Part shown: one piece after another, positions 61,373 to 64,000 of the stretch | How positions within the stretch are numbered: the first letter of the stretch is position 1 | How the letters are laid out: each line of letters begins with the position of its first letter | Assembly (NCBI RefSeq): GCF_000746255.1 | Contig: NZ_JQKW01000008.1 | Span: 62,001 to 126,000 of the forward strand | Source of the DNA: Thermodesulfobacterium hydrogeniphilum | Lineage (GTDB): Bacteria > Desulfobacterota > Thermodesulfobacteria > Thermodesulfobacteriales > Thermodesulfobacteriaceae | Length of the DNA: 64,000 nucleotides | Direction of reading: 5' to 3' | Translations under genes and position numbers: made by a program | Notes under the pieces: model-generated | Told to the model about the DNA's origin: nothing | Databases searched by the model: none | The model's input: only the letters and a program-made list of their open reading frames with translations

Positions 61373-62293
61373 TCACTTAATTTTGCCTATCTTATAAATC
61401 AAACCATCTGGATTTTTCAAAATTTTTTCCAGTTTTAAAAGGTTAATTTGATAATTTTGATGTTTTATCAATTTGTCCAATTTTTTAATAATATAGAAAA
61501 TCGGATGTTTAATTCTTTTTTCTATATCTTCATAAGCTTGAATGTATATATTTTTATTTTCCACAGCAAGTTTATAAGGTTCATAAACAATCTGCACAGT
61601 AGTTCCTACAGTAACATTATTATAGAGAAATTTTATATGCTGAGGATAAAGACGTATGCAGCCGTGTGTACTTCGTCTTCCTATGCTATAAATTTTATTG
61701 GTGCCATGAATGGCATACAGTCCTCTTGATAAATAAAGTGCATATTTACCCATAGGATTGTTTGGTCCAGGAGGAACTACATCAGGCAAAGTAGGATCTT
61801 CTGCTTTTATAGAAGGTGGAGGATACCAAAAAGGATCTTTTTTCTTTTTAATAATCTTATAAATACCTGGATCTGGTAATCTCCCTACATCTCCTACCCC
61901 TATAGGAAAAACGAATAACTTTGGAAATCTAAAATAATAAAGCTTCATTTCGGGAAGATTAATTATTATATAAGATTTGGAATGAAAATATTTAGAAAAT
62001 TCCTGAGGAATAAGGATTTGATAGGGAATAATGATCTTCTTTTTAGGCTTGGGTACCCAAGGATCTATTTTTGGATTAGCAAGAGTTAAATGATAATATC
62101 CTACTTCAAAAGTTACCGCTAAATCAACCAAAGTATCATTTTTTTGAATAATATAGGTTTTATTTTTTAAATAAATAAATCTATGAGGGAATATATAAAT
62201 AAAAGAAAAAGCAAAAGCTTTTACTTGGCAAGTAAATAAAGTGATATAAAATAAAGCAATTAAAACTTTGAAGAGGATTTTATGAAATTTCAT
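61373..62293 (-). CDS. L,D-transpeptidase (YkuD) with N-terminal LysM-like domain
   Basis: 306 residues. Signal peptide from MKFHKILFKVLIALFY to about residue 30, a LysM-like segment (YIIQKNDTLVDLAVTFEVGYY), then the YkuD catalytic domain with YAIHGTNKIYSIGRRSTHGC and CIRLYPQH: the His and Cys nucleophile of H-G-C-I-R. Cross-links peptidoglycan or anchors proteins in the envelope. The start ATG 62293 is preferred; a TTG at 62305 would add four residues. The ATG lies in a palindrome shared with the divergent gene start. Confidence 0.88.
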   Translation of the reverse strand: MKFHKILFKVLIALFYITLFTCQVKAFAFSFIYIFPHRFIYLKNKTYIIQKNDTLVDLAVTFEVGYYHLTLANPKIDPWVPKPKKKIIIPYQILIPQEFSKYFHSKSYIIINLPEMKLYYFRFPKLFVFPIGVGDVGRLPDPGIYKIIKKKKDPFWYPPPSIKAEDPTLPDVVPPGPNNPMGKYALYLSRGLYAIHGTNKIYSIGRRSTHGCIRLYPQHIKFLYNNVTVGTTVQIVYEPYKLAVENKNIYIQAYEDIEKRIKHPIFYIIKKLDKLIKHQNYQINLLKLEKILKNPDGLIYKIGKIK

Positions 62294-64000
62294 AATATCT
62301 TGCAAAAAATTGGTAATACTCCAATAATTAAACTAAGAAAACTAAAAGTCAAGTCTTCTATAGAAATTTTTGGCAAATTAGAAAGTTTAAATCCCGGAGG
62401 TTCTATTAAAGATAGACCTGCTTTTTTTATGATTGAGGATGCTGAAAAAAAAGGGCTTTTAACTCCTGAAAAGATAGTCATAGAGGCTTCCAGTGGTAAT
62501 ACAGGTATAGGCTTATCTTTAGTTTGTGCAGTAAAAGGCTATAAATGTATGATTGCTATGTCTGAAGCTGCTTCTATTGAAAGAAGAAAAATTATGCAGG
62601 CTTATGGTGCAGAAATTTTATTAACCCCTGCTGAAAAAGGAACAGATGGTGCTATAGAGGCTGTATATGAATTAATAAGAAAATATCCAGATAAATACTA
62701 TTGTCCTGATCAATTTAATAATCCTGCTAATTGGATGAGCCATTATCAAACTACTGCACCTGAAATCTGGAGAGATACAGAAGGAAAAGTTACCTATGTT
62801 GTTTGTGGACTTGGAACCACTGGAACCGCGATGGGTATAGCAAAATATGCTAAGGATAATAATCTACCTTTTAAAGTTATAGGAGTTGAGCCTAATCCTG
62901 GGCATAAAATTCAAGGCTTAAAAAATATGAAGGAATCCTATCCTCCGAGTATCTATAATAAAAAACTTCTTTACAAAATTATAAATATAGATGATGAAGA
63001 GGCCTTTTACTGGACAAGATGGCTGGCAAAAGAAGAAGGTATTTTTGTAGGAATTAGTTCTGGCGCTGCTCTGGCAGGAGCTTTAAAAATTGCTAAAGAA
63101 ATTGACAAAGGACTTATAGTAGTAATTTTTCCAGATGGAGGTGAAAGATATCTATCTACACCTTTATGGAGTTTTGATTTGGATAAAATAGATTCTACAG
63201 AAAAAGCTGATCTTATTCTTACTAATACTTTCTCAGGAAAAAGAGAAATCTTCAGACCTTTAAAAGATAAAGAGGTTAAAATTTATACCTGTGGACCCAC
63301 TTTAAACGCTAAACCCCATATAGGACTCTATAGAAGACTTCTTACTGTAGATCTCCTAAAAAATTATTTAAAACTAAAAAATTATCAGGTAAAACATGTA
63401 ATTAACCTTACTGATTTTGATGATAAAACTATAAAAGCTGTTTTAAAAAAAGAGATTGATTTAAAAGATTATACCTCTGATATAGAAAAAGGATTTTATC
63501 AAGATTTAGAATGGCTTAAAATTGATAAAGCTGATTTCTATCCCAAGGTGAGTGAACATTTAGAGGATATGAAAGAAGTTGCTTTGAAAATCTTAGAGAG
63601 AGATATGGCTTATATAAAATATTCAAGTCTTTATTTTGATATTTCAAGACTTCCAGATTATGGACAGCTCTCTAAAATAGATTTAAGGTATCTTAAACCC
63701 GGTGCTACCATAGATGTAGAAGAATATGATAAAGAAGAACCCTTTGATTTTGCTTTATTAAAAAGAGTTCAAATTTTAGAATTAAAAAAAGGCTATTTTA
63801 TAAATACTCCTTTTGGAAAAGTTAGACCGACCTGGCATATTCATTGTGCAACTTTAATTTTGAAATACTTAGGAAATGAAATAGATATTTTTACCAGCAG
63901 TAATGATCTTATCTTTCCTCATCATGAAAATACCAGAGCAGTAGTAAAAGCTTTAACAGGAAAGGAGGTTGCTAAATATTGGATACATACTGGCTTGGTT
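62282..64000 (+). CDS. Cysteine synthase fused to a degenerate cysteinyl-tRNA-synthetase domain (3' end outside window)
   Basis: One continuous reading frame of 573 codons to the window end. I translated every codon and found no stop. Residues 1-310 are cysteine synthase: GNTPIIKL, PLP Lys43 in NPGGSIKDRP, SSGNTGIGLS, GLGTTGTAMG, SGAALAG, FPDGGERYL. From about residue 315 follows a CysRS-type domain: KIYTCGPT with C337, PHIGLYRR (H346-L349), VINLTDFDDKTIK, TWHIHCATL with C522, and LIFPHHENT with H547. By E. coli CysRS numbering, C28, C209 and H234 are kept, but Glu238 reads Thr551, and HIGH reads HIGL. RBS AAGAGG ahead of ATG 62282. The KMSKS region lies outside. Confidence 0.88.
   Translation, partial: MKFHNILQKIGNTPIIKLRKLKVKSSIEIFGKLESLNPGGSIKDRPAFFMIEDAEKKGLLTPEKIVIEASSGNTGIGLSLVCAVKGYKCMIAMSEAASIERRKIMQAYGAEILLTPAEKGTDGAIEAVYELIRKYPDKYYCPDQFNNPANWMSHYQTTAPEIWRDTEGKVTYVVCGLGTTGTAMGIAKYAKDNNLPFKVIGVEPNPGHKIQGLKNMKESYPPSIYNKKLLYKIINIDDEEAFYWTRWLAKEEGIFVGISSGAALAGALKIAKEIDKGLIVVIFPDGGERYLSTPLWSFDLDKIDSTEKADLILTNTFSGKREIFRPLKDKEVKIYTCGPTLNAKPHIGLYRRLLTVDLLKNYLKLKNYQVKHVINLTDFDDKTIKAVLKKEIDLKDYTSDIEKGFYQDLEWLKIDKADFYPKVSEHLEDMKEVALKILERDMAYIKYSSLYFDISRLPDYGQLSKIDLRYLKPGATIDVEEYDKEEPFDFALLKRVQILELKKGYFINTPFGKVRPTWHIHCATLILKYLGNEIDIFTSSNDLIFPHHENTRAVVKALTGKEVAKYWIHTGLV

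Follow-up and report, generated by a model that had tools for sequence, protein, structure and literature searches.

A cysteine synthase fused to a CysRS-derived domain in Thermodesulfobacterium hydrogeniphilum and many other Thermodesulfobacteriota

Introduction

Mycobacterium tuberculosis CysM is an O-phosphoserine sulfhydrylase, and a cysteine persulfide synthase activity has been described for cysteinyl-tRNA synthetase (CysRS). The HIGH and KMSKS motifs of synthetases are essential for ATP binding and activation, and an HXGH variant is functional in some IleRS (PMC10485003). E. coli CysRS reads G34 through contacts from R427 and D436, stacking by W432, and a water-mediated link to R423 (PMC12684709).

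Several synthetase paralogs have other roles. HisZ, a HisRS paralog without adenylation, mediates allosteric feedback control of the HisG ATP phosphoribosyltransferase, and CysRS* of Desulfobacterales, which has no anticodon domain, charges SelC* and is used for cysteine insertion at UGA (PMC9437257). MshC carries KMSKS and binds its zinc through C43, C231, H256, and the thiol of the substrate, the Glu that serves as fourth ligand in CysRS being absent (PMC9736012). We found no earlier description in the open-licence literature of the fusion analyzed here, in which a cysteine synthase and a CysRS-like domain share one polypeptide.

Architecture of the fusion ORF

The fusion ORF lies on the plus strand at the end of the window (the whole 64,000-nucleotide stretch of T. 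hydrogeniphilum DNA under analysis). It is open over 62282..64000 and continues on the contig to a stop ending at window coordinate 64612 (G000:C7:126612), encoding 776 aa. Its two domains are as follows.

62282..63172, plus strand: PLP fold-type II cysteine synthase (CysM-type) domain, residues 1-297; Pfam PF00291 and NCBIfam TIGR01136 above cut-off
63212..64000, plus strand, on to 64609 with the stop to 64612 on G000:C7: CysRS-like domain, residues 311 onward (311-776); Pfam PF01406 and NCBIfam TIGR00435

Pfam placed PALP over residues 7-285 and tRNA-synt_1e from residue 324 of the ORF within the window. On the full protein, NCBIfam matched cysKM over residues 7-296 and cysS over 312-771, both above their curated cut-offs (TIGR01136, 364 bits vs 344; TIGR00435, 344.9 bits vs 340). 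Automatic annotation may therefore give this protein (L005:6282-8609) either name, a warning that one sequence can exceed both the cysteine synthase and the cysteine-tRNA ligase cut-offs. The nearest solved relatives of the PLP half are CysM/OASS. An AlphaFold model of the fusion, built from five sequences, had a mean pLDDT of 48, and its domain geometry was not usable.

The initial annotation had read an unbroken frame through both halves by hand and had named K43, SGNTG, GTTGT, C337, C522, H547, T551, HIGL, and FTSSND; the frame was borne out and every residue was correct on re-reading. A stop or assembly join between the halves, or any other assembly or frame artifact, is ruled out by the open frame and by the conservation of the same architecture across the order and the phylum.

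A 12-base palindrome, ATGAAATTTCAT, at 62282-62293 contains the fusion's start codon together with an in-frame ATG belonging to a divergent minus-strand gene. This gene is L,D-transpeptidase-like and listed at 61373..62305, and the starts of the two genes appear to overlap.

Distribution, origin, and genome context

The source genome is 1.69 Mb and 100% complete by tool estimate. Among named relatives, the closest are Thermodesulfobacterium MAGs, whose fusions are 77-78% identical to this one. A search for the same fusion in relatives, which the initial annotation had proposed, found it in almost every relative sampled within the order and in 157 of 394 genomes (99 of 244 genera) of a sample confined to Thermodesulfobacteriota. 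It was nearly always a single ORF; the exceptions were partial copies at the ends of contigs or in fragmented assemblies, plus one single-contig genome (G054:C1:2736760-2739047) in which the fusion occupies two overlapping frames, split near residue 595. In another genome (G160, L080:6237-10445), the fusion frame is open for 1403 residues, with about 600 extra N-terminal residues. The sole high-coverage match among plasmid records was to two separate genes.

A maximum-likelihood tree built from 38 fused and 44 canonical CysRS sequences has a single branch, with support of 100/99, between the two groups. The tree is unrooted and is thus compatible with a single, old origin of the fused clade without proving it. 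Comparison of the CysRS half with its counterparts in eight relatives gave dN/dS values (NG86) from 0.07 to 0.23, and dS was saturated for a ninth pair. These values are consistent with purifying selection on the CysRS half, and they are rough since dS was near or above saturation.

Neighbors of the fusion in the source genome, named from their ORFs, are pyrimidine, LpxC, L,D-transpeptidase-like, repair, and transport genes. Gene clusters around the fusion that are common to several families of the phylum were few and housekeeping-like, and no partner or acceptor-biosynthesis gene was conserved beside it across these families. An operon partner that would reveal an acceptor was therefore discarded as an explanation. 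So was a special tRNA adjoining the fusion, since no tRNA-Cys was present near it at the 41 loci scanned.

The PLP half

Four features of the PLP half were compared with standalone enzymes and across 83 fusions.

62408..62410, plus strand: Lys43, PLP Schiff-base lysine; aligns with E. coli CysM K41 and CysK K42; 83/83
62492..62506, plus strand: SGNTG substrate-carboxylate loop, residues 71-75; invariant, 83/83
62813..62827, plus strand: GTTGT phosphate-binding loop, residues 178-182; G178, T179, G181, and T182 invariant, 83/83
62921..62926, plus strand: Lys214-Asn215 in the CysM-type insert; invariant, 83/83; aligns with E. coli CysM R210-R211

The Schiff-base lysine, the SGNTG loop, and the G-T-x-G-T loop expected of a cysteine synthase are thus all present, and Q144, S259, P284, and D285 are likewise invariant across the 83 fusions. 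The PLP half is most likely a working CysM-type sulfhydrylase, and gene content may hint at its acceptor (O-acetylserine or O-phosphoserine). Lys214-Asn215 is absent from nearly all of the CysK-type standalone enzymes compared, which lack the insert, and we infer that this pair is a candidate contact to the leaving group of the acceptor. In M. tuberculosis CysM, an Arg in what would be the corresponding loop contacts O-phosphoserine, which offers a tentative lead.

Separate CysRS, CysE, and acceptor supply

Gene content of the source genome was established by targeted searches. A separate full-length cysS, which the initial annotation had suggested looking for, is present (G000:C8:155310-156755) and encodes a canonical CysRS with HLGH, HGGGLD, and KMSKS. 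The fusion is thus not the only CysRS of the genome. At least two cysS matches were found in all 62 fusion genomes examined. In G079 and G173 (L163 and L154), the canonical CysRS appears in two overlapping frames, from a frameshift or sequencing error. Two cysS matches each were also found in G066, G133, G159, G173, G183, G188, and G194, which have no fusion at the threshold used; some of these may hold other CysRS paralogs, and others split genes.

CysE is absent from the source genome, where weak matches were to other hexapeptide-repeat acyltransferases, LpxD- or LpxA-like by ORF reading. Across the phylum, CysE was present in 73 of 132 fusion genomes vs 178 of 227 others (odds ratio 0.34, p = 8e-6, a test that ignores relatedness). 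Of the 69 fusion genomes without CysE, 65 have no TIGR01136 enzyme other than the fusion. A further, free-standing cysteine synthase match was found in 77 of 78 fusion genomes that have CysE, and this free-standing enzyme adjoins CysE in the cases read (G017, G030, and G049). Since CysE pairs with the free-standing enzyme, the fusion appears to be independent of CysE and probably works without it. In the source genome, the gene for phosphoglycerate dehydrogenase (serA, TIGR01327 above cut-off) adjoins one for a class V aminotransferase that falls below every SerC cut-off, so a supply of O-phosphoserine is something that we infer.

PLP chemistry and tRNA-reading residues (see below) on one chain, together with the lack of CysE in many fusion genomes, could suggest tRNA-dependent cysteine synthesis, in which seryl- or phosphoseryl-tRNA-Cys would be presented to the PLP half in a manner resembling SepRS/SepCysS. 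This is highly improbable: the canonical CysRS makes such a route unnecessary, and all catalytic residues of the PLP half are those of an ordinary sulfhydrylase acting on free amino acids.

Catalytic motifs of the CysRS-like half

The following features of the CysRS-like half were located within the window.

63290..63292, plus strand: Cys337, zinc ligand (E. coli C28); Cys in 72/83 fusions
63317..63328, plus strand: HIGL, decayed HIGH, residues 346-349; fourth-position His in 4/83 fusions, and His in 40 and Asn in 4 of 44 canonical CysRS
63332..63337, plus strand: Arg351-Arg352; Arg352 is a family-specific invariant
63845..63847, plus strand: Cys522, zinc ligand (E. coli C209); Cys in 74/83 fusions
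63890..63907, plus strand: FTSSND, decayed HGGGSD, residues 537-542; E. coli G226 kept in 9/83 fusions and 44/44 canonical CysRS
63920..63934, plus strand: His547 (zinc ligand, E. coli H234) to Thr551 (fourth-ligand position, E238); His in 83/83

Extension past 64000, proposed by the initial annotation as a check, revealed an anticodon-binding domain and, where KMSKS would be expected, KLSSE. None of the 83 fusions has the second KMSKS lysine, which all 44 canonical CysRS have. Many fusions show gaps or acidic residues in this loop, and its nearest form to KMSKS is KMSRS, in 14/83. None of the catalytic hallmarks of CysRS (KMSKS with its second lysine, HIGH, and four zinc ligands) is complete in the T. 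hydrogeniphilum protein. Sites invariant in canonical CysRS were kept at a mean of 56% in the three motifs (HIGH, HGGGSD, and KMSKS) and 89% in the anticodon domain (Mann-Whitney p = 0.002). Arg352 (R43 in E. coli numbering) is present in 83/83 fusions and mostly replaced by Ser or Ala in canonical CysRS.

Because an HXGH variant is functional in some IleRS, sequence alone does not prove the fusion inactive, and the 14 members with KMSRS may have weak residual activation. An active ligase, either a second CysRS or an MshC-like enzyme, with cysteine activation retained and a tRNA or some other amine as the acceptor, would fit these KMSRS members, the score of the full protein above the cysS cut-off, and the HIGN carried by some canonical CysRS. 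We nevertheless consider it improbable, given the loss of the second KMSKS lysine in all 83 fusions, the gapped or acidic loops, the further cysS match in every fusion genome tested, and the lack of a conserved acceptor-biosynthesis neighbor. MshC-like activation and ligation, as raised by the initial annotation, is disfavored in particular because MshC keeps the KMSKS that the fusions have lost; the fusion also scores only 140.8 bits against the MshC profile TIGR03447 (cut-off 485.1). Falling short of both CysRS and MshC on these grounds, this half is most safely described as a domain derived from CysRS whose function is unproven.

The zinc/cysteine pocket

Equivalents of C28, C209, and H234 are all present in 72 of the 83 fusions, with at least one of the three missing in 11. 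The Thr residues that hold the amino group of cysteine are mostly kept as well (T31 in 73/83, T68 in 70/83). The position of E238 is Glu in 47 fusions, Thr in 21, and Val in 9. The initial annotation had counted three of four zinc ligands correctly, but its argument from the loss of the fourth is weak: MshC likewise lacks this Glu, and 47 of the 83 fusions have it. The T. hydrogeniphilum protein shares with MshC a three-ligand site without E238 (C337, C522, H547, and T551). As MshC binds zinc through three protein ligands and the substrate thiol, T551 is no argument against cysteine binding, and by this analogy the change from Glu would not by itself abolish it.

The retained pocket would suit a pure cysteine sensor, in which cysteine at the zinc site feedback-inhibits the synthase and tRNA is irrelevant. 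All three ligands are kept in 72 of 83 fusions, MshC needs no more than three protein ligands and the thiol of its substrate (PMC9736012), and CysE, the usual point of feedback, is rarer in fusion genomes. Yet in the 11 members missing a zinc ligand the fusion is still whole and none of the four anticodon readers is lost; if tRNA played no part, one would expect the anticodon domain to degenerate. The match to the MshC profile extends no further than residue 679 of the fusion, which agrees with the absence of an anticodon domain from MshC. We regard sensing of cysteine alone as quite unlikely.

Anticodon domain and tRNA

The anticodon-binding domain of the fusion retains the residues that read G34 in CysRS. 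R423 and D436 are present in 83/83 fusions, R427 is Arg in 69 and Lys in 14, and position 432 is always Trp, Phe, or Tyr. The 11 members with a broken zinc site all keep Arg, Arg, an aromatic residue, and Asp at these positions. Retention of the G34 readers beside a lost catalytic loop is the main evidence that selection keeps tRNA-Cys binding, although R423 and D436 may be conserved in part for structural reasons. Among the uses that the initial annotation had proposed for this half, sensing and tRNA binding are favored by the presence of anticodon readers in every member.

One tRNA-Cys(GCA) gene was found in the source genome among the RF00005 hits read by ARAGORN. A tRNA-Sec gene is also present (G000:C12:92584-92673).

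The same pattern could reflect a docking or channelling scaffold, in which the pseudo-CysRS holds tRNA-Cys or the canonical CysRS and cysteine is delivered near the charging enzyme without allostery. Anticodon readers are kept while catalytic motifs decay, and with one tRNA-Cys (GCA) among the tRNAs read, both proteins would meet the same tRNA. A pure scaffold would not need the zinc/cysteine pocket, T31, and T68 that most lineages keep, and we rate this explanation as rather unlikely.

Discussion

The idea, put forward in the initial annotation, that a CysRS-like domain was joined to a cysteine synthase and repurposed is supported by the separate canonical CysRS and the family-wide loss of catalytic motifs. 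Our preferred reading, for which the sequences offer about an even chance, is that a working CysM-type sulfhydrylase carries a regulatory or docking module, a pseudo-CysRS whose ligands are tRNA-Cys and often cysteine. The pseudo-CysRS half would no longer make cysteinyl-adenylate; its anticodon domain would still dock tRNA-Cys, with the zinc/cysteine pocket left in most lineages. The sulfur acceptor would most likely be O-phosphoserine, not O-acetylserine made by CysE.

Binding of tRNA-Cys, plus cysteine where the pocket remains, to the CysRS-like half would then adjust the synthase. A build-up of uncharged tRNA-Cys might raise synthesis, or plentiful cysteine or Cys-tRNA might inhibit it. 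Such control would replace the feedback that normally comes from CysE, as HisZ does for HisG. A more specific proposal, possible but tentative, is that the pseudo-CysRS senses tRNA-Cys by its anticodon and that the charging state switches cysteine synthesis, providing translation-demand feedback in CysE-free organisms. If so, the link between amino-acid synthesis and tRNA would lie in the enzyme itself, not in gene expression. The fusion would be a widespread pseudo-synthetase attached to the sole cysteine synthase of many sulfate reducers, which points to a CysE-independent cysteine route with its own control element.

Comparison with known systems

Canonical CysRS (cysS, E. coli b0526; 1li5/1u0b) is homologous to the fusion over its full length (residues 311-767), and the CysRS half is about 34% identical to the CysRS of T. 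hydrogeniphilum itself. It differs in its altered KMSKS, HIGH, and HGGGSD, in the family-specific P30, R43, R186, and T168, and in forming a separate clade. With CysM-type synthases (E. coli CysM and M. tuberculosis CysM), the fusion shares all PLP-site residues and the CysM-type insert, whereas it adds a C-terminal pseudo-synthetase and many of its host genomes lack CysE; E. coli CysM has Arg where the fusion has Lys214.

CysRS* of Desulfobacterales is likewise a non-canonical CysRS paralog from the same broad bacterial group, but the fusion keeps its anticodon domain, and no genes such as those linked to CysRS* were seen with it. MshC, the cysteine:GlcN-Ins ligase, resembles the fusion in being CysRS-derived and in a zinc site where the protein supplies three ligands and E238 is missing (PMC9736012). 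MshC keeps KMSKS, ligates, and has no anticodon domain; the fusion is the reverse with respect to the KMSKS lysine and the anticodon domain.

HisZ would be the closest precedent by mechanism. It is a non-adenylating synthetase paralog that controls the biosynthetic enzyme of its own amino acid, as the pseudo-CysRS would do for cysteine. HisZ is of class II and a separate subunit, whereas the fused domain is of class I, is covalently attached to the synthase, and has kept its anticodon readers.
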